Of a stretch of DNA of 64,000 nt, positions 8,247 to 54,518 are shown in pieces. This stretch comes from a virus: the IMG/VR virus record IMGVR_UViG_3300013120_000767, positions 1-64,000 of that record. One strand, given 5' to 3'. Below the pieces are notes generated by a model that was not told the DNA's origin, did no database searches, and saw only the letters and a program-made list of their open reading frames with translations. The position numbers were made by a program, and so were the translations under genes. Positions within the stretch are counted from its first letter, which is position 1. The number at the start of each line of letters is the position of its first letter.

Positions 8247-9939
8247 CCCTCGGGCGATGGTGTCGGTTTGTCGTCACCGGTATGGAAGAGGGGCCCCGCT
8301 CCTTTATGAGGAGGGTACGGAGATGGCCTTGGCCGCTACGCTCCCCCCCACTGTTTCCAGCGGGCCCTTGTCCCTGGGCGACGCTACTGTTTTCTTCTCC
8401 GGCTATTTACAAAATCGGGAAGCCCTTATTGCCACCCACGTTCCTCACAAGAAGGGGGCCGGCGACGCAGAAGTAGTGCGGGCGTTGGTTGAAGGAATGG
8501 GGGTGTACCTGACGGTGTCTGCGTTGCGTGGGTTGTTCGCCCTGGTAGTGCAAACCTTCGAAGGGCTGTGGTTGGCAGTTGACCCAGCGTGGGGCAGTGT
8601 TCTCTATTACCATGTCGACAAGAAGGGAGGTGTGCTCTTTGCCAACAAGATTAGCTCCTTGTTGACTTTGGTGCCCGCCGTTCCCCATATTACCCAGGAT
8701 TTATGGACTTTCGAATTCCCCGTTGCTGCTGCAACGATGTTTGAAGGTATCCACCAGGTCCCCGCGCAGCACATTGTTCACTTCGCTTGGGGGTCAACGA
8801 CGCCGGCGGCTATCCGGTACTGGCACCCGCGTGTCCCCCTTGTGCAGGGCTCCCCCACGCAAAGTGTGGTTGCTTTTGAGCAGTTGCTGCGCCAGTCGGC
8901 GGAGACTTGCCGCCGGGACAACCAGGGCTTCACCGTTTCAGGGGGACTGGACTCGGCGGTCTTGGCTGCGCTGATGCGCCCAGAACAGGTCATTGTCAAC
9001 ACCTACGAAGGGTACGGGGATGCCTTCGACGAGCTTGAGTACGCCCTTGCGGTGGCTGCCTCCATTGGGGCCGGAGTTCACTACGTCCGCCCCACGGCAG
9101 ATGATTTCAGGAAGTACTTCCCGGAAATCATTCGGAACCTTGAGGGCATCGTTGCCACTTTCTCCCCTATCTCCAATTTCATGATGGCAAAGAAGACGCA
9201 GGAGTTGGGCTTCTCTTCCTGCGTTTTTGGCCATGGGCCGGATGAGCTCCTCAGTGGGTACATTCGGCATTTGCTTATCATGTACGGGGCGCAGCATGCG
9301 GGTGAGGGGGACTTGACGGAGCAGTTCCTTGGTGCCACTTCTTGCCATGCCTACCGGCCGTTGGCTGAGTACTTATGGGCAACTCCAGAGTTGGCTGAAG
9401 CGTCGCCGCTGGAGCAGCACCTCCGAGTTACGGATCGTTCCCCTACTAGTGGACGGGAGCAGCGAGAGCAGGTGACTAGGTACTTCAATGAGTTCCCGCA
9501 GCTCCCCAATTCACTCGGCAACGTAGAGTTTAACCTTACCTACCCCGCGCAGATGCACATGGGCGCGAGCGACGCCACCGCATTTGGGCTGGAGGCGTTC
9601 TGCCCCTACTTGGACCCCAACGTCATGCAGTTCTGTTTCTCTGTCCCGCACTTGAAGTTGGTTGAGGGGCAGACTAAGTGGATTCTGCGCGAGGTTGGTC
9701 GGCGAATCGGGGTCCCCTCCTCAGTCACGGAGCGGGCGGACAAAAAAGGGTTGGTGGTGCCGGCCACTCGTTGGCTTCAGGGGCCACTTACGGAGTGGGC
9801 GGACGAGTTGGTTCGAGGCTTGCGCAGGCGCCTCCCGCACGACCCTAACGTGCACACTAAATTGAGACGGGGGGAATTCGACCGTCAGCTGTACAAGTTG
9901 GTTTCGCTGGAGTTATGGTTTCGGGAGTTTATCGACTGA
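8212..9939 (+). CDS. Asparagine-synthase-like amidotransferase lacking Cys2
   Basis: A 575-residue AsnB-family protein. An N-terminal Ntn-type glutaminase-like domain (about 1-200; SGYLQNREAL, ANKISSLL) is followed by the synthetase PP-loop SGGLDS at 243-248 and the typical downstream VFGHGPDELLSGY. I chose GTG at 8212, four bases after GGGAGG; the protein then begins (f)M-I-Y-A-G-V. The catalytic Cys expected at position 2 is absent in this reading and in the longer one, so glutamine hydrolysis is probably lost and free ammonia would be used. AsnB-like enzymes in sugar loci amidate uronic acids, which fits the UDP-glucose dehydrogenase in the same island. That link is inference. Confidence 0.8.
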   Translation: MIYAGVYRREGDPRAMVSVCRHRYGRGAPLLYEEGTEMALAATLPPTVSSGPLSLGDATVFFSGYLQNREALIATHVPHKKGAGDAEVVRALVEGMGVYLTVSALRGLFALVVQTFEGLWLAVDPAWGSVLYYHVDKKGGVLFANKISSLLTLVPAVPHITQDLWTFEFPVAAATMFEGIHQVPAQHIVHFAWGSTTPAAIRYWHPRVPLVQGSPTQSVVAFEQLLRQSAETCRRDNQGFTVSGGLDSAVLAALMRPEQVIVNTYEGYGDAFDELEYALAVAASIGAGVHYVRPTADDFRKYFPEIIRNLEGIVATFSPISNFMMAKKTQELGFSSCVFGHGPDELLSGYIRHLLIMYGAQHAGEGDLTEQFLGATSCHAYRPLAEYLWATPELAEASPLEQHLRVTDRSPTSGREQREQVTRYFNEFPQLPNSLGNVEFNLTYPAQMHMGASDATAFGLEAFCPYLDPNVMQFCFSVPHLKLVEGQTKWILREVGRRIGVPSSVTERADKKGLVVPATRWLQGPLTEWADELVRGLRRRLPHDPNVHTKLRRGEFDRQLYKLVSLELWFREFID

Positions 9940-15546: not shown

Positions 15547-15561
15547 TTGACGGAGGTAGTG

Positions 15562-16878
15562 ATGCAGATAGCACTGGTAGGAACCGGGTACGTAGGCTTG
15601 GTCGCTGCGGTTGGCTTTGCAGAAAAGGGCCACAGCGTTGTCGGCGTCGACAGCAACGCCGCCGTGGTGGAAAATTTGACGCGGGGAGTACCTCACATTT
15701 ACGAGCCTGGCTTGGAGCAGCGCTTGGGTAGGGCGTTGGCCACAGGGAACCTTCGATTTACAACCGACTTGCACGACGCGGTTAAGGTGTCCGAGGTGCT
15801 GTTCATTGCTGTGGGTACCCCCTCCGATGTCGACGGCTCGGCGGACCTTTCCAACGTCCTCGCGGTAGCGCAGCAGGTCGGGGAGGTTGTGTCCAAGGGC
15901 CAAATAGTGGTCTTGAAGAGCACCGTGCCGGTCGGCACCAACGCCCGAGTTACGGCGATTATCCGCGCGGCTGCCGGGGAGGCCATCGAGGTGGTCTCCA
16001 ATCCCGAGTTTCTCAAGGAGGGCACGGCGGTTGCGGACTTCTTGAATCCGGACCGCGTCGTCATCGGCTCGAGTTGCCCCGTTACCCAGGCAGTAATGAG
16101 GACGCTCTACGCCCCCTTTTACCGGCGCACCGGCCGTATCTTGTTCATGGACGCAGTGAGTGCCGAGATTACCAAGTACGGAGCCAACGCTATGTTGGCT
16201 ACGCGAATCTCCTTCATGAATGAGATGGCCGACTTGTGCGCTGCGGTAGGCGGCGATGTCGACGCCGTCCGCCGAGGGATGGGGGCGGACGCCCGCATCG
16301 GGGACCGTTTCCTGTTCGCCGGCGCCGGGTACGGTGGTTCCTGTTTTCCCAAGGACGTGCGTGCCTTGCTGCGCATGGCCAACGAGCTCGATATTCCTCT
16401 ACGCATAGCGCACAGTGTCGATGAAGTAAACACCCAGCAACGTCAATTGGTAGGGCGCTCACTTATCAGCTACTTCAAGGACCGGGGTGGGCTTGCAGGG
16501 AAGCGGGTGGCCGTGTGGGGGCTGGCTTTCAAACCGAACACCGACGACATGAGGGAAGCCCCCGCACGGGAGCTGTTGGTCCAGTTGTTGGCGCAGGGGG
16601 CTGAAGTTGTTGCGTACGACCCGGCGGCGATGCCCAAAGCACAGGAGCTTTTTCCTACGGGGGTCACCTTTGCGGGTGACCTGTACGCTGCGGTGGCGGG
16701 GGCGGATGCGCTGGCCATTATGACCGAGTGGGGGATGTTCCAGGGGGCGGACTTAGGTGCAGTTCAGGAGGCCATGAACACCCCGGTGATCTTCGACGGC
16801 CGCAACTTGTTCCGCCTGGAGGAAATGAGGGCGGCGGGATTCACCTATTGGTCCATCGGTCGCCCATTAGTGGGCTGA
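15562..16878 (+). CDS. ugd: UDP-glucose 6-dehydrogenase
   Basis: A 438-residue UDP-glucose/GDP-mannose dehydrogenase family enzyme. It has the NAD-binding GTGYVGLVAAVGFA at 7-20, the catalytic AEITKYGAN (Lys205), the FAGAGYGGSCFPKD active-site loop with Cys261, and the C-terminal GLAFKPNTDDMREAPA. It oxidises a nucleotide hexose twice to the uronic acid, most likely UDP-glucose to UDP-glucuronate, using two NAD+. Length and all catalytic residues match working enzymes. GGAGG lies five bases before the ATG. In this island it would supply the uronic acid for the glycosyltransferases and possibly the substrate for amidation by the AsnB-like protein. Confidence 0.92.
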   Translation: MQIALVGTGYVGLVAAVGFAEKGHSVVGVDSNAAVVENLTRGVPHIYEPGLEQRLGRALATGNLRFTTDLHDAVKVSEVLFIAVGTPSDVDGSADLSNVLAVAQQVGEVVSKGQIVVLKSTVPVGTNARVTAIIRAAAGEAIEVVSNPEFLKEGTAVADFLNPDRVVIGSSCPVTQAVMRTLYAPFYRRTGRILFMDAVSAEITKYGANAMLATRISFMNEMADLCAAVGGDVDAVRRGMGADARIGDRFLFAGAGYGGSCFPKDVRALLRMANELDIPLRIAHSVDEVNTQQRQLVGRSLISYFKDRGGLAGKRVAVWGLAFKPNTDDMREAPARELLVQLLAQGAEVVAYDPAAMPKAQELFPTGVTFAGDLYAAVAGADALAIMTEWGMFQGADLGAVQEAMNTPVIFDGRNLFRLEEMRAAGFTYWSIGRPLVG

Positions 16879-16888
16879 CGGGGGTGCC

Positions 16889-18694
16889 ATGCAACGACGG
16901 CGGCCGCGCAGGCGGCGGGGACCAGTGGTAGTTTTGCCCCCTTCAGGGCAGCCCCGGGTTGTGCGCCGCCCCCGCCCCGTCATCAACGGACCCGATTACA
17001 TTACCCAACCGCAGCCGCACGGAGTGATGCGGGGGAGCGCCCGCCCTACTTCGGTCCCCCGCCGCATGAAGGCCCTTTTTTTCGTCCTCCATGTAGGATA
17101 CGTGCGGGCAACTTTGGCCTACATGACCGCTTTGCACATGGGCATTCTGGACGACCTCCATTGGGAGTGGTCGTTGTGCGAAGACCCCGAGTTGCCGGAA
17201 GAAGAGTTGCGCAGCTACGACCTCATCCTCCTATGGCCGCACGGGTGGGAGGCGTGCGACGAGCCTTGGCCTTTCTGGGAACGCTCTCGGCGTTTGCTGG
17301 CCCGGGCTCGGGAGTTGAAAATCCCGGTGTTCAGTGGGATACCCACAAAGGCGTGCGGGCATCACGCTTCTTTACAGCAGTGGGCGGAGGCGGGCATCAA
17401 GTGCCCCCAGTCCCAGCGGCTGGGCCCCAAGGAGGAAGTGCGGTTGCCCTACCCGGTTGTTTTGCGGAGGGACCGCAAAATGAGCCAGGGGAATTCCATG
17501 TACCTGGCCCGGTCCCGGGAAGAGGAACGGGAGATTCGCCAAGCGCACCCTGAGTTGGACCTGGCAGTGGAGTATATCGATGTGCGCCGGGGAGACGGGT
17601 TCTACAGCAAATACCGCTGCTACATTGCCGGCGGCACTGTAATTCCCAGGCAGGCAATGTTCTCCGACCAGTGGATAGTGACTCTGGGGCACACCGTGGG
17701 AGTGCGTTGCCCTGTTTCAGTGGCGGAGAATCAGCGCTTGTTCACTGAGGCGGACCCCGCCCGGGACGAGATACTACTCCGAGCTGCCCGGGCGGTGGGG
17801 TTGGATGCGGGGGCGGTAGACTACTCGTACACCCCCGAGGGCGACCTGGTGGTATGGGAGATCAACGCCTGCTACGGCATGGCGGGGAAGGGGAGCCGCA
17901 CCATCGATATCGCCTTTCGAAAGTCCACTGGTATTGCCAATCCGGAGATGGTCGTGCATAAGGAGCAGCAGTTGGCCTTGGTTTCCGGGCGGGAGATGCA
18001 CATGCGGGCAGTGGGGGGAGACCGGCCCGTGGCGGTCCTGTGGACCGGGGGGTGGGACTCCACGTTCCGCATCTGCCAATTGCTGGACGGGGGGGCAGAG
18101 GTGCTCCCAGTGTACTTGGCCAGCGCCCTTGACATGCGCAAGAACCAAATGTCCGAAATTGTCACCATGCAGGCCCTCCGGCCCTTGTTGCGGAAGAGGT
18201 TCCCTCGAAGTAAGGTGCTCCCCACCATGCACGTTGGCCGGCCGGGGGACCACTCGATATCTCACGGCATCCCCGGCGACCACCTGGTAACTGCCGCAGC
18301 CAAACAGATCGGGTACGGCGGCACGGGTAAGGAGAGGATGGGCAGGCAGTACGAGGCGTTTTGCCGGTTCGCTAAGCACTTTGGGGAGATGGAGCTGTGC
18401 ATCGAGGTGGGGGGGCGGGCGGAGAAGCTCCTCCGCAGCGACGTGGTGGATACTCCCCAGGGAATTCGGCTGAAACCTTACTCGGAGCTGACAGACAAGG
18501 CCCTCGAGATTTTCCGCCCCTTTGTGTTCCCCCTTATCAGGAGTACCAAGGCTCACATGCTGGCCGTCAGCGAAGAACGGGAGTACCTCCCAATCCTCAA
18601 GCGGACCTGGTCATGTTGGTTTCCTCAGAAGAACGGCTCCCCTTGCGGCCGGTGTGAGATGTGCATTCGCCGAGCGGTGCCGGCACAAGGTTAA
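16889..18694 (+). CDS. ATP-grasp / QueC-like PP-loop fusion
   Basis: A 601-residue fusion. Residues 1-59 are a basic Arg/Pro-rich tail. Residues about 60-365 look like an ATP-grasp ligase: YPVVLRRDRKMSQGNSMYLA, EYIDVRRGDGFYSKYRCY and the metal-binding DYSYTPEGDLVVWEINACYG. Residues about 380-601 resemble 7-cyano-7-deazaguanine synthase (QueC): the PP-loop LWTGGWDSTFR (384-394) and a C-terminal zinc tetrad Cys576, Cys586, Cys589, Cys592 (PCGRCEMC). Both domains make acyl-phosphate or adenylate intermediates, so the protein may couple two ATP-driven amide or ligation steps. No queuosine-precursor genes (queD, queE) are nearby, so base modification is only one option. GGGGGTGCC precedes the ATG; an internal ATG at 17066 lacks a ribosome site. 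Confidence 0.75.
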   Translation: MQRRRPRRRRGPVVVLPPSGQPRVVRRPRPVINGPDYITQPQPHGVMRGSARPTSVPRRMKALFFVLHVGYVRATLAYMTALHMGILDDLHWEWSLCEDPELPEEELRSYDLILLWPHGWEACDEPWPFWERSRRLLARARELKIPVFSGIPTKACGHHASLQQWAEAGIKCPQSQRLGPKEEVRLPYPVVLRRDRKMSQGNSMYLARSREEEREIRQAHPELDLAVEYIDVRRGDGFYSKYRCYIAGGTVIPRQAMFSDQWIVTLGHTVGVRCPVSVAENQRLFTEADPARDEILLRAARAVGLDAGAVDYSYTPEGDLVVWEINACYGMAGKGSRTIDIAFRKSTGIANPEMVVHKEQQLALVSGREMHMRAVGGDRPVAVLWTGGWDSTFRICQLLDGGAEVLPVYLASALDMRKNQMSEIVTMQALRPLLRKRFPRSKVLPTMHVGRPGDHSISHGIPGDHLVTAAAKQIGYGGTGKERMGRQYEAFCRFAKHFGEMELCIEVGGRAEKLLRSDVVDTPQGIRLKPYSELTDKALEIFRPFVFPLIRSTKAHMLAVSEEREYLPILKRTWSCWFPQKNGSPCGRCEMCIRRAVPAQG

Positions 18695-18801: not shown

Positions 18802-18831
18802 TTGCCTTTCAAGGCGACTAAGTGCTATAAT
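18802..18831 (+). promoter_or_regulatory. Strong sigma70-like promoter before terminase
   Basis: TTGCCT at 18802-18807, an 18-base spacer, and a perfect TATAAT at 18826-18831. The start codon of the terminase lies only 25 bases downstream. It would begin transcription of the head genes. The 107 bases between the island and this promoter hold no gene; a weak CTCCCC/GGGGAG hairpin without a T run is the only other structure seen. Confidence 0.65.
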
Positions 18832-18855
18832 ACCACGACGAAAAGGGGGGACCTC

Positions 18856-20556
18856 TTGCTTTTCCCGTTCAGGCAGTTACCGCCCAAGGAGTCGGAAGAG
18901 GAAATTTTGGAGTTGCCCCCTATTCCGCTGTCTGAATTAGCGCCCACTTTGTTGAACATCCAAACTCCAAGTGGGGTGGTGCCTCTCAGTTATGAAGACC
19001 GCCCTTTCCTCCGGCAGATTGTGGACAGCTTTCCGGCAATGAGGAAGATGTTTTTTCTGTGGGGCCGGCAACTGGAAAAATCGACCTCGTTGGCGGTAAT
19101 TCCCCTCCTGCTTTCTACTTTGCAGACTATGACCGTCCAGTACACTTCGGGGACGCTCACCCAAGCGATGGAGTTCTCCCACTGGAAGCTGGACGGGTTC
19201 ATCAAACACTCCGAGTTCCTCAGGAGCATCTACGACACGCGGGGTGTCCAGCTGATGTACAACCGGCGGGAGAAGGAGAGCTACACTGGCTCCCGCATCC
19301 TGACAGGCACCGCCTTTGGTGACGCCGCCCGAATTCGTGGTGTGCCTGCTGACATGTTGGAGATGGACGAGCTTGAGCTGGTGCAGTTGGAGGTGGTGCC
19401 GGTGTTGCAGCATTCGCTCCACCACTCCCCCTACAAGTATGAGCTCCATGCGGCCACACCCTTGTCCACTGACAACACTGCCTGGGTGTACTGGGACAAG
19501 TACTCCGTCCAGCATGAGTGGGGCATCCCTTGCTCTTGCCGGTCGATGTCCAGCGGGGTGGGCCAGATCAATATGAACTCCTTCCATTGGAACATTCTTA
19601 CCCCCCGTAACCTCTCCCGGTCCGGCCCCATTTGCGACAAGTGTGGGAGGCTCATTGACACCTTGGAGGGGAAGTGGCTGCGGACTACGGGCACCCAGTC
19701 CCCCCGCACCTGGCACGCCTTCCGGCTGCCTCAGTTGGCCGCCCCCTACACTGACTACGACGACATCGTGACCAGCATGGAGCAGCGGCCAATCGAGACC
19801 ATGCAGGAGTCCTTCGCCCTGTCCGTGACGCAGGCCCGGCAGGTCTTCACCGACGCCCTGATTGAGAAGATCAGCGATGCGGAGCTGCCCAATACTGAGG
19901 ATAACGTGTTGGCTCGGGCCGGCGTGTACCCCATGTTCGTGGGCGTCGACTGGGGCGCTGGCGGCCAATCCGCCACAGTCATCGTGTTCGGGGCGTACAT
20001 CAAAGACATCTTTACGTTCGTAGGGGGCTTCCGTTACTTCGAGTTAGGGCTCCCGGACCTGGAGGAGTACCGGGTGGGGACTGAAGTGGACGCCTACCTT
20101 CCCTTCCTGCCGTTGCTGCGGCAAGTGCGCATCGCCAAGCTGGGAGCGGACGCTGGAATGGGGTACGTGCGTAACCGGATGCTTGTCAGCATATTCGGGG
20201 CGGAGCGGTTCGTGCAGGTCCAGTATGTCAACCAGAACGCCCCTATCAAGTTTGCCCCCCACGACCTCATTGTGAAGGTCAGCCGAGACGAGATGCTCAC
20301 CAATGTGGTGACGGCGATGAAGATGACCCCCTCCCGTTTCAAGCTCCCCCGGATGGCGGATTTGCGGGCGCACCATTGGTACCAGGACTTGAAGGCGGTG
20401 AAGGCGGAAGTGGACAGAAAGGGAAAGGTGCGGTACATTCACAGTGAGAATGAGACGGATGACTACTTCCATGCTATGTTCAACTGTCTCCTGGCGTCGC
20501 ATTTGGTGTATCCGCGCAGCGACATGTTCCCGGCGGCATCTTTCCAGTTGACATAA
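18856..20556 (+). CDS. terL: Terminase large subunit
   Basis: A 566-residue DNA-packaging motor. The N-terminal ATPase has FLWGRQLEKSTSLA, a Walker A variant in which the usual Gly-Lys is Glu-Lys, and DMLEMDELEL in the Walker B region. A zinc-like cluster CSC...CDKCG lies in the middle. The C-terminal RNase-H-like nuclease has GVDWGAGGQSATVIVFG, LGADAGMGY and DDYFHAMFNCLLA, which supply the three acidic residues. I chose TTG 18856 because AAAAGGGGGG lies five bases upstream and the promoter -10 lies before it; a longer reading from 18802 would start inside the promoter. The protein cuts concatemers and pumps DNA into the prohead. No small subunit is recognised nearby. Confidence 0.9.
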   Translation: MLFPFRQLPPKESEEEILELPPIPLSELAPTLLNIQTPSGVVPLSYEDRPFLRQIVDSFPAMRKMFFLWGRQLEKSTSLAVIPLLLSTLQTMTVQYTSGTLTQAMEFSHWKLDGFIKHSEFLRSIYDTRGVQLMYNRREKESYTGSRILTGTAFGDAARIRGVPADMLEMDELELVQLEVVPVLQHSLHHSPYKYELHAATPLSTDNTAWVYWDKYSVQHEWGIPCSCRSMSSGVGQINMNSFHWNILTPRNLSRSGPICDKCGRLIDTLEGKWLRTTGTQSPRTWHAFRLPQLAAPYTDYDDIVTSMEQRPIETMQESFALSVTQARQVFTDALIEKISDAELPNTEDNVLARAGVYPMFVGVDWGAGGQSATVIVFGAYIKDIFTFVGGFRYFELGLPDLEEYRVGTEVDAYLPFLPLLRQVRIAKLGADAGMGYVRNRMLVSIFGAERFVQVQYVNQNAPIKFAPHDLIVKVSRDEMLTNVVTAMKMTPSRFKLPRMADLRAHHWYQDLKAVKAEVDRKGKVRYIHSENETDDYFHAMFNCLLASHLVYPRSDMFPAASFQLT

Positions 20557-21493: not shown

Positions 21494-22234
21494 ATGGAAG
21501 TGTATCCTGAACTTCTCACCGAAATGGCAATCACCATAGTCAAGGCGTTTTTCCACAATGAAGGGAAGAAGGACCTGTCAACGTTGGTTGCGGAAAATGT
21601 TGCCCGGTTCGCGCGAATACACAAGGGGAAAGCTTTGACGGATACTCACGTCCGCACCCTTTGTCAAATGGTCAATCGGGCAGTCCACAAGAACGCGTTC
21701 AAGAAGCATCGCTTGGTCCGCTTCAAATTGGCCTCCTTGGCCAAGGTACGGCTGGGGGGGAGGGCGAGGAAGGAAGCGAAGGGCCCACCCCTCACCCTCC
21801 CGGAGTTGCGCCGAGTAGGGCCGGTGTCGCACACCTCCAAGGCGAAAAAGGCCAAGAGGAAGCCGAAAATCCCTCTGCGGGACAAGCTCCCAGGGCACCG
21901 CCATTTGAAGAAGACGGCAGCCGCCGAGGTTCTCAGTGAGAGCTTGGGGGATCTGACCGGAACGGTCAACGCAGCGCTGCGGAAGTTGCCTCCTGAGGAA
22001 CTCATGGGGCTGGCGGTAGTCTTGGACCGGGGGCACGGGTCCACCGTCCTTACCCGAGTTATGCAGGGGGCCTTGGAGAAGACAGCCGACATAGACTTCG
22101 ACAAGGTGGCCCAGTATACTGGAATGACCCCGTCAGCAGAGCACCCGGTGGTGGCGTCGATGACATCATTTTTGACGGCTGTGGCTGCGTATACCGACGC
22201 CTCCGCCAAGTTGGAGGGGGCATGGGTCAAGTAG
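21494..22234 (+). CDS. Putative core/internal head protein with EKxA sites
   Basis: A 246-residue protein. The N-terminal half is basic (KKAKRKPKIP, KHRLVRFKLASLAK), the C-terminal half acidic. It has three candidate maturation sites: HLKKTAAAE at about 136-144, ALEKTADID at about 197-205 and DFDKVAQY just after. These match the hydrophobic-E/K-K-x-A pattern of the prohead protease neighbourhood. I infer a head-core or DNA-associated protein trimmed during maturation. GGAGG lies nine bases before the start. It overlaps the next gene by 13 bases. Confidence 0.6.
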   Translation: MEVYPELLTEMAITIVKAFFHNEGKKDLSTLVAENVARFARIHKGKALTDTHVRTLCQMVNRAVHKNAFKKHRLVRFKLASLAKVRLGGRARKEAKGPPLTLPELRRVGPVSHTSKAKKAKRKPKIPLRDKLPGHRHLKKTAAAEVLSESLGDLTGTVNAALRKLPPEELMGLAVVLDRGHGSTVLTRVMQGALEKTADIDFDKVAQYTGMTPSAEHPVVASMTSFLTAVAAYTDASAKLEGAWVK

Positions 22235-23524: not shown

Positions 23525-25243
23525 ATGCTCCACAAAGCACTCGACGTCCCCGCCTTTGACGATCACCACCACCAGCGAGTGTTCACCCTGACCGGTTTGG
23601 AAAAGACGGCGGCAGCCCTCCCAGCTGGAGCTAAGTCTCATTTCTCGGCGGCGTTACAGAGCCAGATCAAGTTGATCAAACCGCACCCTGCCTACTCGTA
23701 CATGGTGATCATTCCCATTGGAGCATTCGAGTACTGGGGCCCCAACTCCCGGGGCGACGCTGTCCTGGAGGAGCATCTGGCTCCGACCAACTGGCAGACC
23801 TGTAAAGTATATGCTAAGCGCCCCTATGGGTACCGTACGTTCCTCAATGGGAAGTTTTTTGCCCACCACAAGAACAAGCCGCAAAAGGGGCATCCGGTCT
23901 ACGGCGACGTCATTTTCACCAACTACAACTGGGGGATGCACTGGATTGAGCTGCTGGTCAAAGTCTTCCGAGAGCCGCTGGCCAAGGACCACCCGGACAT
24001 CTTGAATTGGATTGACAGCGGTCATCCCTTCGACGTGTCCATGGGGATGTACGCTGTTGCTGACGTCTGCCCGATTTGTGGGAATACTCGGCGCCACCAC
24101 GAGGACCCGGCGTGTTTGCACATCAATAGGCGGTTCATTGGCACCATCATGCCCAACGGCCGAGTGGCCTGCATGGTCAATCTCTACCCCAAGTTCCATG
24201 ACATCTCGGCAGTGGACGAGGGGGCGGACACCTTAGCGCATGGGCTGCTGAAGGTGGCGGCCAAAGACGGCTCTATGTCTTCGGGAGTACCTGCTTCCCG
24301 CATCCCCAAAGCTCGGGTGACGGCGGCGTTGCGGGAACTGGTGCGCAAGGGCGCCATTGCCAAAGCTGGGAAAGTTCCGGCCCTTCGCAGTTCGTCTCCG
24401 GCGCAGTTGGAGAAGCGCTTCCTCATCAGGAAGATGGCGGAGATGTTCAGCAAGGAAGCCAGCATCGACCCCGGCGCTTTGCTGGCAGCGGGGGACAAGC
24501 ATGGCCCAGGGCTGATCCTCTCCCTCATACGCAACAAGGTTCTGCTTGACCCTCGGGAGTTTACAGCGGCTTTCCTTGGAGCGCAGGGGAAGAGGAAGCA
24601 AGGACTCCTGATAATCAAGAAGCAAGTCATGATTCCGTTTCCTGACGGGGTCACTCCTGTAGAAGTTGACGGTACCGACAAGCCGGGGGTTTCTGCGGAC
24701 AGGCACGTGCAGCGCAAACTGGCGCCGCACCGTTCTATCCTTCCCAAGATTCTACGTGCCCGCCTCCGACGTCTGTTGGACCGCTTGGCGCTGGCGGAGG
24801 AGACTCTCTCCAATACCCGAACGGAGCTGGAGGAGTGGGGGATTGAGAAGAACGCTGAATTGGAGGGGGCCTACCGGAACTACCTGGGCATGATCATGAC
24901 CGCGCCCGATGTAGCTGTTCCTTTGATGGGGGACTCCCCCTACGCCCTGGCCAGCGACCGGGAAGTGTTGGGGATCGAGAAGCAAGCTGGTTTGACGACT
25001 TTGCTGATTGCTCCCAGTCTCACCATCCCCCTGTGGCTTATGGCTCGAACAGCGAGCAAGAACCAGGAAGCGAACGCTGAGCAGTTGGCGCTCTTGGCGG
25101 CATTGGCGGGGGCACGAAGCAAAGGCCCCCGAGTGACAGTCATCAATCCCCCACCTATGCCTGACCTGCGGCCGACGGCCCTGCCTTACGCCTTGCTCCA
25201 CAGCCTGGCCAACGACCCGGAATTGCGGGAAGAGGGGGAGTAA
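23525..25243 (+). CDS. Prohead maturation protease fused to core-like domain
   Basis: A 572-residue protein. Residues about 50-245 resemble phage prohead serine proteases of the U9/U35 (HK97/T4 gp21) type: catalytic His candidates in FFAHHKN (114/115), Ser172 in FDVSMGM, a zinc-like CPICGN...CLHI (Cys182, Cys185, Cys197) and PKFHDISAVDEGAD, a characteristic segment at the end of the domain. The domain is bracketed by GLEKTA (24-29) and GLLKVA (240-245), exactly where self-cleavage would release it. The remaining 325 residues hold FSKEAS, GIEKNAEL and GIEKQAGL, so they may be a core or scaffold part cut into pieces. It would process core proteins and capsid precursor inside the prohead. The family call comes from conserved blocks, not a search. 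Confidence 0.8.
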   Translation: MLHKALDVPAFDDHHHQRVFTLTGLEKTAAALPAGAKSHFSAALQSQIKLIKPHPAYSYMVIIPIGAFEYWGPNSRGDAVLEEHLAPTNWQTCKVYAKRPYGYRTFLNGKFFAHHKNKPQKGHPVYGDVIFTNYNWGMHWIELLVKVFREPLAKDHPDILNWIDSGHPFDVSMGMYAVADVCPICGNTRRHHEDPACLHINRRFIGTIMPNGRVACMVNLYPKFHDISAVDEGADTLAHGLLKVAAKDGSMSSGVPASRIPKARVTAALRELVRKGAIAKAGKVPALRSSSPAQLEKRFLIRKMAEMFSKEASIDPGALLAAGDKHGPGLILSLIRNKVLLDPREFTAAFLGAQGKRKQGLLIIKKQVMIPFPDGVTPVEVDGTDKPGVSADRHVQRKLAPHRSILPKILRARLRRLLDRLALAEETLSNTRTELEEWGIEKNAELEGAYRNYLGMIMTAPDVAVPLMGDSPYALASDREVLGIEKQAGLTTLLIAPSLTIPLWLMARTASKNQEANAEQLALLAALAGARSKGPRVTVINPPPMPDLRPTALPYALLHSLANDPELREEGE

Positions 25244-25745: not shown

Positions 25746-25822
25746 TTAGGAGTAAGGCGAGCATTTACGGATGCTAAGACCCACCTTGGTCAAACCAACA
25801 GAACATGTCAGGAGGAGTGAAG

Positions 25823-26455
25823 ATGAAAATCACAGAGAAGGACATCATTGAGGCCCTTCAGGCGGCGGACACCGAGCCCGCGGCCGACGAGGAAACAGGG
25901 CTCGAAGGCACCCTGGAGAAGGTAGCAAGCGTCCAGGAAGTGCTGGGTGAGGACGATATGTCCCTGGCCGACCTGGACGACGAGGAAGCCCTCGAGGCCC
26001 TTGCCGCTGCCGGCATCCCGGAAGAGGAAGCCATGGAGCTGGTCGAGGCCCTGATGGAAATCCTGGGTGAGGGCGAGGCGGAAGAGGGCGTTGACAAGGA
26101 GGCGGCTCAGGAAGAGATGTTTGGCATGGGCTACGCCTATGGCAAGGGCTTCCAGGCAGCGCTCGACGAGGGTGCTGCGGCCGACGAAGGCGTGGAGAAG
26201 CAGGCCGCCAGCGCACGGGTTCAGGCCCTCAAGGCGCAGCTCTTCGGTGAGAAGCAGAAGGGCAAGCTGGGTAAGTACAAGGCCCGGATGGCGAGGCGGC
26301 AGGCGCTGAAAGGCAAGGCCTCCGCCCTGCTCGGCAAGGCCAAGAGCAAGCTCGGAGCGGCCGGGAAGCTCGGCCTGAAGCACAAAGGCAAGATTGGCAT
26401 CGGCGCCCTCCTGGCGGCGTTGGCAGGCACCGGCGGCTACGCTGCCGGCAAGTAG
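25823..26455 (+). CDS. Acidic/basic bipartite core (scaffold) protein
   Basis: A 210-residue protein starting MKITEKDIIEAL, with AGGAGG seven bases upstream. Residues 1 to about 105 are very acidic and helical (DDEEALEALAAAGIPEEEA), and residues about 140-195 very basic (KGKLGKYKARMARRQ). Three sites of the shared motif divide it: TLEKVASV (about 30-37), GVDKEAAQ (about 90-97) and GVEKQAAS (about 126-133). The C terminus is hydrophobic (GIGALLAALAGTGGYAAG). This is the profile of a prohead core protein: an acidic scaffold part degraded at maturation and a basic part kept with the DNA. It lies just upstream of the capsid gene, as expected. Confidence 0.7.
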   Translation: MKITEKDIIEALQAADTEPAADEETGLEGTLEKVASVQEVLGEDDMSLADLDDEEALEALAAAGIPEEEAMELVEALMEILGEGEAEEGVDKEAAQEEMFGMGYAYGKGFQAALDEGAAADEGVEKQAASARVQALKAQLFGEKQKGKLGKYKARMARRQALKGKASALLGKAKSKLGAAGKLGLKHKGKIGIGALLAALAGTGGYAAGK

Positions 26456-26533: not shown

Positions 26534-26800
26534 ATGACCCTGGAAGAACTGTACCAGCAAGGCTTCCAAGACGGCCTGGAAAAAGTCGCTGAGGCAGAGG
26601 ACGAAGGCATCGAAGCGCAGGCGGGGTGGCTGAAGACCCTGAAAGCGAAGCGAGCCAAAGGCCTCCTGGCGCTGGCGAAGAAGAAGGGCGCCAAGGTAGG
26701 CTTCAAAGACCTCAGCGCCGGCCGCAAGGTCGGCGGGCTGGGGGCGCTCCTAGCGGCCGCAGTAGGCGGCCGCGGACTCGGCAAGAAACGGGCAGCATAG
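26534..26800 (+). CDS. Small internal head protein with GFQDGLEKVA
   Basis: An 88-residue protein starting MTLEELYQQGFQDGLEKVAEA, with AAGGAGGAG before the ATG. The motif GFQDGLEKVA (10-19) is nearly identical to GFQDSLEKVA of the sigma-like protein at 53565. After an acidic linker the rest is basic (KTLKAKRAKGLLALAKKKG) with a Gly/Ala tail. Most likely a virion protein whose N-terminal 17-18 residues act as a core-targeting propeptide. Confidence 0.7.
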   Translation: MTLEELYQQGFQDGLEKVAEAEDEGIEAQAGWLKTLKAKRAKGLLALAKKKGAKVGFKDLSAGRKVGGLGALLAAAVGGRGLGKKRAA

Positions 26801-26812
26801 GAGGGTAGTCCC

Positions 26813-27226
26813 ATGAGGAAGACGCTGACAGAATTGCTCCTCGACCGTAACCCGGTGGAGGTGGCTGATGCCATAGTTGGCGCCTCTCGTGAGGACAGGG
26901 AAGAAGGCATCGAAAAGAACGCGACCATAGACGATGCTCTTTCCACCCTGGGAATCGAGGCTGATTTGGGCGGGTCCGAGAGTGGCCTTGACCCTGAGCA
27001 CCTGGAGAAGGTTGCTTCGGCAGTCGAACGGGTGGTGGGCGCCCTTTCCTTTGTTCGTCCGGACGTTGAGCTGGAGGACATCTTGTCGGTTGAGGGAAAA
27101 CGGCTTCTGGAAGGGCGCGAGATTCCGCAGTTGGAAGACAGCCCCTTCGAGAAGCAGGCATCCCGCAGAATCACCCCTGCGCTGAAGGAGCGGATCAGGG
27201 CTCACCTGGGGAGGAGGCAGTCATGA
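26813..27226 (+). CDS. Core protein with three EKxA sites
   Basis: A 137-residue acidic protein with GIEKNATI (about 32-39), HLEKVASA (about 63-70) and PFEKQASR (about 111-118). Cutting at all three would leave small peptides, as for T4-type scaffold proteins. The C terminus is basic (LKERIRAHLGRRQ). GGAGGGTAGTCCC precedes the ATG, and the stop overlaps the next start (ATGA). Confidence 0.65.
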   Translation: MRKTLTELLLDRNPVEVADAIVGASREDREEGIEKNATIDDALSTLGIEADLGGSESGLDPEHLEKVASAVERVVGALSFVRPDVELEDILSVEGKRLLEGREIPQLEDSPFEKQASRRITPALKERIRAHLGRRQS

Positions 27227-27543
27227 AGATTTCAGAATTGACCGGCGCCCTGGAGGGGGTCCCTGAGCTGCTCCGTTCGGCAGCCGCTGAGATTCGAGAA
27301 GGTCGGACCGCCCGGACCAAGCTGGAGAAGACTGCAGCGGTGGCTCGGGTGAAAGCCACCTTCTCTGATTCCTCGTCAACAGACGAGGACATCCTGTCCG
27401 AACTTCCGAGGGAGGCCATCGAGAAGTTAGCTGACAGGTTGGCGCCGAGAAGCACACTGGGTGAGGCCAGCGAGGAGGCAAGCTCGCCCGATCGGACCAC
27501 GAGTGACGTGGACTTTCTTGAGAACTTGAGAACATTACAATAG
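27223..27543 (+). CDS. Small core protein with LEKTA site
   Basis: A 106-residue protein with KLEKTAAV (about 33-40) and AIEKLADR (about 64-71). It is acidic and helical, lies in the core gene run immediately before the capsid genes, and is translationally coupled to the previous gene. Probably scaffold or internal peptide precursor. Confidence 0.65.
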   Translation: MKISELTGALEGVPELLRSAAAEIREGRTARTKLEKTAAVARVKATFSDSSSTDEDILSELPREAIEKLADRLAPRSTLGEASEEASSPDRTTSDVDFLENLRTLQ

Positions 27544-28124: not shown

Positions 28125-29282
28125 ATGCTGAGAGATCACGAAATTCGTGAGATGAATGAGCGCTGGGCCGACTCCTTCGACGAACCAGGGGAGGGTCTTG
28201 CCAAGGTGGCTGCGCTGAACAGGCAGTACATCGAAGACCACATTCGGGAAGGTTCATTCCTGGACGCTGTCAAGGAGCCGGAGCCGATCACCAACGAGGA
28301 CTGTGAAAGGTCCGTCAATACCACCTCGCCGATCATCATCGACGAGATCACGGATGGCCAGTGGGGCATGCCGGTGGACTTCACCGGCAGCACTCGGAAT
28401 GAGGCCGTGCGGCAGCCGAAGTATGCCATCACGATCCAGAAGATTCAGACGGCAACTGCGGTGTACGACACGGACGAGATCCGGATGTCCCGGCGACCCA
28501 TCACCAAGCACCTGAAAAGGGACCTGGGCGATGCGTTGGCGGACGCCAAAGACCGCTCCTTCGTGATCAACATCGAGACGGCGGTGTGGTTCCTGTTCAA
28601 GGACTACACGGCGGGGAACGCCGCCAACGGTCTGAACAACACCAACATCGACGACGGCACCGTGACCGAGTACTCAGTCTACAAGAGTGCCGCAGCGAAG
28701 GAGGTGGTGGACGCAGCAGGCGCAGTTGCTGACACCTGGGAAGTGACGCCCTTGCGGAAGACCGACTTCACCGACTTCCAGAACTCGTTCAACACGAATG
28801 AGGGGGAGCAGTTGGTTGGGGCCATTGTGCTCATGACCAACCACGACTTCAATCGTGCCAGCGACTGGACGATTGAGGAAGTGGGGGATGTCACGGTCAA
28901 GAACACGGTGGAGACCACCAAGGGCTACCGCAAGTTCAAGGACATGCGGGTGGTTCGTACGGGCAAGCACCGCTGGCTCCGTCTGGGCAACGTCTACGGC
29001 TTCTCGCCGTGGTCGCACCTGGGTCGTTACTTCCAACTGGAAGGCGTCAAGACCTACCAGGACAAGAGAGGCACCCGGGTCGAGATGTTTGCCTGGATGT
29101 ACATCGGGCTCGGCTTCGGCAATCTGGCTGGGTTGAAGAAGATGGAGTGCTACTCTGCTTCGAGTACCCCGACCTACGAGGACACCGGCTTCGCCGTGGT
29201 CCGCCCAAAGGTTGAGGACGATGTCATCCGGAACAACCGAGTCGACACCGGAGACTGGCTGCCGAGGTTCACCGCCTCATAG
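28125..29282 (+). CDS. Major capsid protein
   Basis: A 385-residue protein in the classic position after protease and core genes, with a strong site (AGGAGGGGACC). The N terminus contains GEGLAKVAALN (22-32), matching the maturation motif and predicting removal of a short acidic propeptide of about 27 residues. What remains has the alternating strand/helix make-up of HK97-fold capsids: an extended N-arm (SPIIIDEITDGQWGMPVDF), a spine helix region (KHLKRDLGDALADAKDR) and beta-rich C-terminal A- and P-domain segments (VRTGKHRWLRLGNVYGFSP). It would form the icosahedral shell. The assignment rests on synteny and features, not on a direct match. Confidence 0.75.
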   Translation: MLRDHEIREMNERWADSFDEPGEGLAKVAALNRQYIEDHIREGSFLDAVKEPEPITNEDCERSVNTTSPIIIDEITDGQWGMPVDFTGSTRNEAVRQPKYAITIQKIQTATAVYDTDEIRMSRRPITKHLKRDLGDALADAKDRSFVINIETAVWFLFKDYTAGNAANGLNNTNIDDGTVTEYSVYKSAAAKEVVDAAGAVADTWEVTPLRKTDFTDFQNSFNTNEGEQLVGAIVLMTNHDFNRASDWTIEEVGDVTVKNTVETTKGYRKFKDMRVVRTGKHRWLRLGNVYGFSPWSHLGRYFQLEGVKTYQDKRGTRVEMFAWMYIGLGFGNLAGLKKMECYSASSTPTYEDTGFAVVRPKVEDDVIRNNRVDTGDWLPRFTAS

Positions 29283-29296
29283 ACGAAGGGGGTGAC

Positions 29297-30136
29297 ATGT
29301 TTCGTCTATTCAAAACCGGAAACCCAAAGCCTGGGAAGGGTAAGTGGAAGCGCTTGCTTACCCTTCCCGGCAGCCCCTTGCGCCCACGGGTCGGGGGTAT
29401 TCTGATTCCCACACGAGGTGTCTCCGTTACGTCGATCTTCATAGCGGACAACGTCACAATCATCAACACGTTGATTCGGGCTGACGCCATCCGCGTTGAG
29501 TACAAAGGGGAGGAGGCACAGCCCCGGCAGTTACTCCATTTGGTGCGGGAAGTGTCGAGTTTGGTGCCCACGTTGAGTCGGGGGGCAGCCCCAAAACTCG
29601 AACTGGAGGAGGTCCCCGCCAAGGAACCTCCAGAAGACTCACCTCCACCGGCGAAGTCGGAGTCGGTTCCTGCCCCCGTGCCAGAGCCGGTGGCGCCTAC
29701 CCCTCCCAAACCCAAGCCCAAACCCAAGCCCAAACCTGAGCCCAAACCTGAGGCCAAGCCTGAGGCCAAGCCTGAGCCCAAGCCTGAGCCCAAGCCTGAG
29801 GCCAAGCCTGAGGCCAAGCCTGAGCCCAAACCTGAATCTGAACCAGGCAAGGGCAAAAAGGGGAAGAAGGGAAAGCGAGCTCGGGACGAGGAGGGGAGAT
29901 ACGCAGGAGACGACCCGGAAACGCCTGATGTGAACGAGGCGTGGGTGGAATCCTCCGAGGAGCAGGCGGATGAGGAGACCCCTATCGTCGCTCCGCCCAA
30001 GCCGCCGCATCGGATGAACAAGGCCGACTTGGTCGACTGGCTTGACCAATGCGGTTATGAGCGGGAGGATTTGGAGGCGATGCGGCGCAACGAACTAGTC
30101 AAGTTTGGTAGGAGGCTGATGCAGAAAGATGGCTAA
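29297..30136 (+). CDS. Lys-Pro repeat protein with C-terminal LEM/SAP-like helix pair
   Basis: A 279-residue protein. Residues 1 to about 85 look folded and beta-rich (VGGILIPTRGVSVTSIFIADN). A long Pro/Lys/Glu repeat follows (PKPKPKPKPEPKPEAKPEAK, about 136-180), then an acidic linker and a C-terminal NKADLVDWLDQCGYEREDL with LEAMRRNELVKFG, a two-helix motif like the LEM/SAP/HeH folds used to contact nucleic acid. It may be a head completion protein with an extended spacer. The first codons contain a 12-bp perfect inverted repeat. Confidence 0.6.
   Translation: MFRLFKTGNPKPGKGKWKRLLTLPGSPLRPRVGGILIPTRGVSVTSIFIADNVTIINTLIRADAIRVEYKGEEAQPRQLLHLVREVSSLVPTLSRGAAPKLELEEVPAKEPPEDSPPPAKSESVPAPVPEPVAPTPPKPKPKPKPKPEPKPEAKPEAKPEPKPEPKPEAKPEAKPEPKPESEPGKGKKGKKGKRARDEEGRYAGDDPETPDVNEAWVESSEEQADEETPIVAPPKPPHRMNKADLVDWLDQCGYEREDLEAMRRNELVKFGRRLMQKDG
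29333..29368 (+). promoter_or_regulatory. 12-bp inverted repeat after capsid gene
   Basis: GGGAAGGGTAAG and CTTACCCTTCCC are perfectly complementary over 12 bases, separated by a 12-base loop that itself contains AAGCGCTT. It lies in codons 13-24 of the gene after the capsid gene and could limit translation or transcription downstream of the abundant capsid message. Confidence 0.5.
29706..29841 (+). repeat. Coding tandem repeat (Pro-Lys/Pro-Glu)
   Basis: Degenerate 6- and 12-base units of the type CCCAAACCCAAG and GCCTGAGGCCAA encode KPKP, KPEP and KPEA repeats. It is a protein-level low-complexity spacer. Confidence 0.8.
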
Positions 30137-53564: not shown

Positions 53565-54518
53565 ATGGGAGTTAGGAAGAAGCGCCAAGTGTTCATAGTC
53601 CGTGTACGGGACGAGGAGAGCGATTCCCCCACCCTGATGGTAGCGCACACCCGGTACGGTAGAGTAGTGGGGGAAGTTCCTTGCGCAGTTGCGGGTGAGG
53701 AACTCCAGAAGTTGGCCAGGTTCCAGGCACTGCACCAGGAAACACCCCTCTTCGTCATCGCCGGGGACGGCGAACGCGGCCAATTAGTGGACCCGGTCCT
53801 GATTGGCTTTCAGGACTCCTTGGAGAAGGTGGCGGCGGCCTTGGACCCTTTGACTGTGGCTACCACAAACTGGCAACAGAAGAAGCACAACAAGCGCTAC
53901 CTCCCCCCGGTAATTGCCGAGCTGCGTAAGGTCGTCGCCGGCAGGGCGCAGGACTTCGCCAGTAGAGGGGGGCCCGTTATCCCCCAGGCCGAGTTCATGA
54001 AGGCAGGACTGAAAGCGTTGCGTAAGTACGACCCCAGTCGGGGAGTGCGGGCTTCCACTTTCGTGGTTGGCTCCCTCAAGGGAGCGCATCGCCCCCTGCT
54101 GCGGCGAGCTACCCCGGTGCGGGTCCCGGAGCAACGCCTCCAGCAAGTAGGCAAAGTTCGGAGAGCCGAGCGGGTGCTTGAGAATCGGTTGGGGCGGGCG
54201 CCGACAACGGCAGAAATAGCCAGCCAAGCTCGTGTGAAGGAGACGGATGTGGTCCTCCTCCAAAAGGAGGTGAAGCCTGTCCATATGCAGACCAAGGAAG
54301 AGGTACCACACGGGACTCGGGCTAGCCGAGTCAAGGAGGTTTGGTCCCTCCTGCCCCCGGAATTGACAGGGACCGAACTGGCAGTGTACCGCTTTCTGGA
54401 CAAAAACCCAAACGCCAAGAACACGGCCATAGCGCAGCGGTTGGGGATTTCGTCTTCCCAGGTCTCCCGGTACCGGCAGAAGCTGCGCAGGAGGGTAGAG
54501 GCACATGCCAAGCCTTGA
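53565..54518 (+). CDS. Sigma70-like factor with N-terminal cleavable domain
   Basis: A 317-residue protein. Residues 1-85 are a separate beta-rich domain (QVFIVRVRDEESDSPTLMV). GFQDSLEKVAAALDP (81-95) carries the prohead-maturation motif and nearly repeats GFQDGLEKVA of the head protein at 26534. From about 105 it resembles a sigma70-family protein: region 2-like GLKALRKYDPSRGVRASTF (148-166), a region-3-like LENRLGRAPTTAEIASQAR (205-223), and a C-terminal helix-turn-helix NTAIAQRLGISSSQVSRYR (286-304). Helix spacing fits sigma regions 2, 3 and 4. I infer a sigma factor that may be packaged and cut free at LEKVA. Acidic residues of promoter melting and -10 contact are not verifiable here. AGGAGGAAGCC precedes the ATG. 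Confidence 0.75.
   Translation: MGVRKKRQVFIVRVRDEESDSPTLMVAHTRYGRVVGEVPCAVAGEELQKLARFQALHQETPLFVIAGDGERGQLVDPVLIGFQDSLEKVAAALDPLTVATTNWQQKKHNKRYLPPVIAELRKVVAGRAQDFASRGGPVIPQAEFMKAGLKALRKYDPSRGVRASTFVVGSLKGAHRPLLRRATPVRVPEQRLQQVGKVRRAERVLENRLGRAPTTAEIASQARVKETDVVLLQKEVKPVHMQTKEEVPHGTRASRVKEVWSLLPPELTGTELAVYRFLDKNPNAKNTAIAQRLGISSSQVSRYRQKLRRRVEAHAKP

Follow-up and report, generated by a model that had tools for sequence, protein, structure and literature searches.

The window analysed here comprises bases 1-64000 (64,000 nucleotides) of G000, a virus record of 134,075 bases. The features discussed are collected in Table 1. An identical sigma factor is encoded on a second contig of 145,296 bases (G001), which extends past the start of G000.

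Table 1. Sigma factor gene and head-module genes of the window
Feature	Position	Strand	Evidence
Sigma70-family factor with N-terminal extension, 317 aa	53565..54518	+	Pfam, PHROG and PDB matches, AlphaFold model
Sigma core, residues 103-317	53871..54515	+	domain matches, PDB alignment, AlphaFold model
Orphan N-terminal domain, residues 1-84	53565..53816	+	predicted mixed alpha/beta, low confidence
GFQDSLEKVA, residues 81-90; candidate prohead-protease site, predicted cut after A90	53805..53834	+	
Terminase large subunit, start of head module	18802..20556	+	PHROG 675, E 9.4e-41
Head-module protein with LEKTA	21494..22234	+	
Probable prohead protease, itself containing three EKxA sites	23525..25243	+	weak match to PHROG head maturation protease, E 0.0042
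Head-module protein with LEKVA and VEKQA	25805..26455 (alternative start 25823)	+	
Small head-module protein with GFQDGLEKVA	26534..26800	+	
Head-module protein with three EKxA sites	26813..27226	+	
Head-module protein with two EKxA sites	27223..27543	+	
Probable major capsid protein (MCP), LAKVA at residues 25-29	28125..29282	+	

The sigma factor ORF has an AGGAGG just 5' of its ATG, and the upstream gene ends 9 nt before it. Judged by its sequence, it is a genuine gene of the sigma70 family. Regions 2, 3 and 4 follow each other in order: Sigma70_r2 was matched weakly (E 0.019, below the Pfam cut-off), Sigma70_r3 clearly at residues 195-238 (E 6.6e-9), and a C-terminal helix-turn-helix at residues 269-309 stands for region 4. 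The protein also matches PHROG 351 (sigma factor, E 7.7e-12) and, by sequence, a PDB sigma factor (E 2.3e-10, the alignment spanning residues 121-237). Together with the string GFQDSLEKVA described below, these matches confirm the sigma70-like protein with an extra N-terminal domain of about 85 residues reported in the initial annotation. The structure prediction of both parts proposed there succeeded mostly for the core: in an AlphaFold model built from 19 sequences most of the core is confident and most of residues 1-84 stay below a pLDDT of 50, and residues 1-94 modelled alone with AF2 reached a pLDDT of 56, too low for a fold search. Foldseek with the whole, partly disordered model matched sigma chains at low TM-scores (0.17-0.26 by query length among the 50 matches listed).

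GFQDSLEKVA is identical at nine of ten positions to GFQDGLEKVA, residues 10-19 of the small head-module protein encoded at 26534-26800. This exceeds the best match in each of 12 shuffles of the other proteins (seven positions in 11 shuffles, eight in one). The best real match among the 121 proteins outside the set of 11 head proteins used in this test, a set partly picked by the motif, was 7/10. The pattern [LIMVF]EKxA occurs 24 times in the 133 predicted proteins (40,160 aa), whereas 500 shuffles averaged 3.5 copies and never gave more than 10. Of these 24 copies, 14 fall into the run of 13 genes that follows the terminase and ends with the MCP (2,618 aa) and eight into the ten genes of a block reaching from the portal to the RNA polymerase (RNAP; 5,057 aa), the latter block having been delimited after motifs were noticed there; both head blocks together hold 22 copies in 7,675 aa. 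Outside of them the sigma factor has one copy, and the remaining 109 predicted proteins, with 32,168 aa in all, contain a single one between them. As expected of a prohead-protease substrate, the sigma factor shares its putative cleavage motif with the head proteins of the same phage. A cut after A90 would give a product of 227 residues; the untagged sigma factors of related phages have full lengths of 229-265 aa.

The protease candidate has relatives in Salmonella phage Arash (gp222, E 2e-18), in Bacillus phage G (gp19, E 4e-8) and in three Vibrio phages. The MCP shows 29.6% identity to its counterpart in the related genome G041 and was aligned by blastp to the annotated major capsid protein of Arash (E 2e-6). 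The closest relative according to the capsid protein (69% identical) is the 11.7-kb contig L011, whose matching head proteins carry EKxA sites, too, though not always in the same place; in the protease, L011 retains two of the three sites of the window and lacks the one at residue 440. EKxA sites recur in the head proteins of G041 as well.

Prohead proteases usually cut capsid proteins near the N-terminus. A K-x-A near the N-terminus of the capsid protein, aligned or similarly placed, is present in the window and in all 12 relatives read (L011, G041, G043, G045, G046, G047, G055, G051, G053, G056, G057 and Arash). For this reason K-x-A, usually followed by a small or acidic residue, probably represents a prohead-protease site, the bond cut being presumably the one behind the alanine. 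In five of the 14 records searched the capsid protein was not found on the contig. Single-sequence scans of viral contigs returned only near-identical contigs or L011, and a search with an alignment of a pair of capsid proteins yielded nothing further.

As a yardstick for N-terminal tags, we counted in G000 and G041 together the proteins whose 25 N-terminal residues include K-x-A with A, S, G, E, D, T, Q or N as the next residue; they number 21 of 212 outside the head blocks and 9 of 53 within them. The pattern hydrophobic-x-K-x-A was found in the first 50 aa of 3/107 non-head proteins in G000 and of 11/105 in G041, several of the latter in the tail region. Non-head genes of G041 with such an N-terminal motif (L153-L159) lie at 8776, 15197, 17244, 49422, 51977 and 56368. 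These occurrences weaken the specificity of the motif in G041.

Some further observations concern the head region and its surroundings. Immediately behind the capsid protein (29297-30136) a protein with a long run of KPKPEPKPEAKPE-type repeats is encoded. In front of the terminase, at 15547-18694, a UDP-glucose dehydrogenase (E 4.7e-98) is found together with a protein whose C-terminal part is QueC-like and has a second, weak transferase-like match adjoining; a role of these genes in DNA or surface modification is possible. In L011 the terminase ORF opens (bases 1-180) with a stretch resembling an intein's C-terminus, GGVVTHN followed by STTL, and a helicase-like protein on the minus strand (L003 8430-11192; G000 92430-95195) is interrupted by intein splicing and LAGLIDADG domains. 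The protease ORF of L225 (G047 113249-118273) is, at 1,674 aa, much longer than its relatives, possibly owing to an insertion such as an intein.

Tags comparable to LEKVA were looked for in other sigma factors. A first scan demanded EKxA upstream of YDPSxG and, being biased by this, served as a lead only; it gave 13 stretches, including a 265-aa sigma factor starting with MNPFDEYMAEKAAS, which is encoded by G041 (121 kb) and one other contig. A second scan used alignment patterns without the tag and was therefore blind to the motif. It recovered the window's sigma factor and that of G041 again among 37 loci, of which 20 were read, the other 17 contigs belonging to sets read earlier; L196 is a generic sigma factor. 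Another sigma alignment failed to recover the window's own sigma factor and was thus unusable as a test for the tag.

The motif-blind scan revealed seven further sigma lineages with K-x-A in the first 23 residues: LQKEA (L161), LLKIA (L162), MIKTA (L163), FLKLA (L164), AEKAA (L166, identical with G041), SAKKA (L167) and RKKTA (L193), the starts of L161 and L193 being chosen internal ATGs. With the window's LEKVA this amounts to eight tagged lineages, L162 and L163 being close kin. The tags of G047 and G055 fit K-x-A only, not hydrophobic-x-K-x-A. Prefixes up to the predicted cut comprise 11-23 aa in the seven lineages and 90 in the window; the predicted mature lengths of the seven are 252-298 aa and thus differ from the 227 aa of the window's sigma factor. 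In every tagged phage with a readable capsid protein (window, G041, G043, G045, G046, G047 and G055) K-x-A is present there, too, and the tags of the two proteins can be alike: G043 has EKEAA in its capsid protein and QKEAA in its sigma factor, G045 TKTAA and IKTAA, respectively. As far as the searches can tell, the 50,697 phage records include no isolate of the tagged branch; the matches comprised more remote RNAPs besides Arash and three Vibrio phages.

A search for relatives of residues 1-84 of the window's sigma factor, proposed in the initial annotation with a view to fusions to other cargo, detected none in 230 loci, in G000 and G041 or in the part of G001 that was covered. In view of this result and of the short prefixes of the other tagged sigma factors, packaging through this domain as a specific module, also claimed there, is not supported, and we rejected the domain of about 85 aa as a shared cargo module.

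Untagged in the motif-blind reading were L172/L173, L174, L177, L181, L190, L191/L192, L194 and L195. A midpoint-rooted tree of 25 sigma cores with the N-termini removed split the eight tagged rows from the 17 untagged ones with weak support (76/81) and with a long branch for the window; L160, L165, L172 and L192 (duplicates or near-duplicates) and the generic L196 were left out, and 9 of the 18 relatives of one alignment were used. The initial annotation had staked its proposal on LEKVA being conserved alongside the sigma domains. This is not the case in the sister branch, where the sigma factor is kept and an N-terminal propeptide is absent; in the tagged branch a putative propeptide with a degenerate form of the signal is retained in 8/8 lineages, as expected of capsid-targeted cargo.

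The sigma-alignment search gave a match in 32 of 34 related records; the two records lacking one are short fragments (12.8 and 23.9 kb). The distance from the terminase match to the sigma start behind it is 8.6-11.1 kb in 29 of 31 related records (G001, the window's twin, was left out) and 16.7 and 30.9 kb in the other two. The sigma factors of Arash (234 aa) and Vibrio phage D181 (229 aa) are both encoded in the tail cluster and have no N-terminal tag, and none of 29 untagged relatives (22 distinct proteins, 229-265 aa) has an N-terminal domain like that of the window. K-x-A occurs in the first 60 residues of 13 of these 29, in nine of them within the sigma core; the other four, identical to each other, have EKPAW at residues 5-9, presumably by chance. 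In 33 further sigma loci read (out of 42, the remaining nine contigs being covered by the 29 relatives) hydrophobic-x-K-x-A was found in two only (L108, L125), both times inside the core. Because untagged relatives keep the sigma gene in the tail cluster without such a domain, this location is, as far as sequence comparison can tell, ancestral and the N-terminal extension a later addition. The late tail-gene location noted in the initial annotation is thus real, but as evidence for packaging it was rejected, given the similar distance from the terminase in untagged related phages.

A second, weak sigma-like match, possibly a second sigma factor, was observed at W01 120992-121237 and at similar places in eight other records (E 2e-5 to 5e-4). 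TATAAT-like A/T-rich stretches lie directly 5' of the untagged sigma genes L173 and L174 (G049 and G050), 25 bases before the start. A promoter motif read by the sigma factor was not found in the upstream regions, which gave mostly ribosome-binding sites and weak short k-mers.

Outside the window, at G000 120176-126214, the beta and beta' subunits of a bacterial-type RNAP are fused in a single ORF (2,012 aa), which contains the motif NADFDGD. Rpb2_6 was matched in the first 1,274 aa (E 5.4e-49) and Thermus beta' with an E-value of 3.7e-91. The alignment of the beta' part with Thermus beta' continues without a break through a region which we take to be the sigma-binding coiled coil. Homologues of this RNAP were found in 18 of 26 sigma-bearing records and in 14 of 18 records of a second set, G037 being in both. 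All 16 sigma-bearing records of at least 167 kb possess it; the records without it are shorter, the longest being G001, which stops before that region. The RNAP is a single open frame in G041, G043, G044, G045, G047, G049, G050 and G055, too. Of these eight phages and the window's, seven have a tagged and two (G049, G050) an untagged sigma factor; in the record of L164 (G046) the sigma factor is tagged and no RNAP is present on the contig. The gene lies inside the head block: G041, G043, G045 and G047 have, in this order, genes for portal, RNAP, a head protein, terminase, protease and capsid protein; in G055 the series is seen from the RNAP on, and in G000 the RNAP is flanked by the portal and that head protein. 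A clear tag is missing in the RNAP, which has a single K-x-A at residue 54 in the window's phage and at residue 57 in G041 and none in the last 60 residues. The RNAP ORF of L223 (G055 106086-113633) comprises 2,515 aa, much more than its relatives, and may contain an insertion such as an intein.

From these data we infer that the phage makes, late in infection, a sigma70-family initiation factor as a precursor with an N-terminal capsid-entry propeptide. The N-terminus would carry the precursor into the prohead, where the prohead protease would cut it after LEKVA (A90), and the mature sigma factor would be ejected along with the DNA. It may then give promoter specificity to the phage beta-beta' RNAP, probably cargo of the same head, so that early genes could be read at once. 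Entry into the prohead and cleavage there would be the simplest account of a signal common to the capsid protein, the protease, the core proteins and the N-terminus of the sigma factor, and this signal is kept across sigma lineages whose prefixes otherwise differ. The cut at LEKVA postulated in the initial annotation thereby gains a head-protein signal behaving like a prohead-protease site and the K-x-A of seven other lineages, while cleavage itself stays a prediction. Against packaging it counts that the whole sister branch keeps a sigma factor without a tag and that G049 and G050, which have the fused RNAP, lack the tag as well. In the Arash record, moreover, which labels many proteins as structural and gives no basis for these labels, the RNAP subunits and the sigma factor do not carry the label. 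On balance, packaging together with processing of the sigma factor appears probable. The complete chain of packaging, processing, ejection and the phage RNAP as partner has, in our estimate, about an even chance of being correct. That the phage lineage packages a sigma70-type holoenzyme, consisting of the beta-beta' fusion and a tag-imported, protease-freed sigma factor and allowing early transcription independent of the host, is a more tentative reading and falls a little short of that.

Since the phage encodes its own bacterial-type beta-beta' RNAP among the head genes, this enzyme seems a likelier partner of the sigma factor than the host RNAP, which is a possible one; the redirection of host RNAP postulated in the initial annotation is accordingly less likely than claimed there. 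It might be that the sigma factor is packaged and processed but acts on the host RNAP at the start of infection, the phage RNAP being made later for the late genes and staying unpackaged. The motif evidence would be the same, the RNAP has no clear tag, and the Arash record does not label the RNAP as structural. The constant presence of the RNAP in the long sigma-bearing records, the place of its gene among head genes and the unbroken alignment of beta' through the putative sigma-binding region speak against this, and according to the available part of the source the beta subunit of the virion RNAP (vRNAP) loses an N-terminal propeptide in phage 201phi2-1 and is packaged uncut in SPN3US (PMC5694885), so that a missing tag does not exclude packaging. 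We regard this alternative as unlikely.

Equally improbable in our view is an ordinary late-gene sigma factor that stays in the cell and whose linker EKxA is due to chance or has another role. The gene would then simply have kept its place in the tail cluster of untagged related phages, and [LIMVF]EKxA turns up in 4% of shuffles of the sigma sequence. Against it stand the 9/10 decapeptide match, the rarity of the motif outside the head blocks and the tags in seven other lineages. A head-internal structural or DNA-bound protein that has lost its sigma activity, as could be suspected from the weak Sigma70_r2 match and from the window's row being the longest end branch of the sigma tree (2.21), is highly improbable considering the recognisable regions 2, 3 and 4, the mostly confident model of the core and the retention of the sigma factor in nearly all related records.

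If packaging and cleavage of the sigma factor hold true, this would be the first protease-processed packaged sigma factor known to us, and a transcription factor would carry a capsid-targeting tag. The phages would also offer a simple sigma-RNAP pair for studying how viral RNAPs find promoters. A literature search, covering the available portions of the papers, gave no case of a packaged or virion-associated phage sigma factor, which is no proof of absence.

According to the accessible parts of reviews, jumbo phages bearing an RNAP have no sigma homologues and those bearing a sigma factor borrow the host RNAP (PMC7824862, PMC7598289, PMC13282480); moraphages are described with a sigma factor and without an RNAP of their own (PMC12619734, available in part). 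The phages analysed here, whose long records mostly span 167-193 kb and so fall just short of jumbo size, have, by their gene content, both an RNAP and a sigma factor and in this respect depart from the reviews as far as these are available. In the phiKZ-like phages (phiKZ, SPN3US and 201phi2-1) a multisubunit RNAP is packaged in the head together with protease-trimmed proteins (PMC5694885, available part), similar to our proposal. Their RNAPs consist of several chains, and the accessible text reports no sigma homologue except for a structural likeness of gp68 (PMC13282480). Here, instead, one beta-beta' chain and a recognisable sigma70 factor are encoded, and the phage of the window does not share the phiKZ-like combination of split beta, split beta' and no sigma homologue.

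The internal proteins and Alt of phage T4 enter the capsid with a short targeting propeptide that is removed by the protease; in the part of the source at hand, 10-20 residues are given for the propeptides of the internal proteins and longer ones for SPN3US head proteins (PMC5694885). The prefixes predicted here would be of the T4 size in the seven lineages and far longer in the window. The cut motif and the cargo differ from those of the T4 capsid-targeting sequence, and targeting by the tag is putative in our case. In crAss-like phages an RNAP carried in the virion reads the early genes, as proposed here; it is highly divergent, with both catalytic barrels in one chain, and the available part of that paper makes no mention of a sigma factor (PMC7886860). 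A crAssphage protein is annotated as sigma-W factor in a table of another, partly accessible source (PMC8093824), and the combination of RNAP and sigma factor may therefore exist elsewhere, too. Among known phages, Arash and the Vibrio phages D181, D148 and D69 have the same families of terminase, protease, RNAP and sigma factor. Arash and D181 encode the sigma factor in the tail cluster like the phage of the window but, unlike the latter, without a tag and with the RNAP distributed over two or more ORFs.
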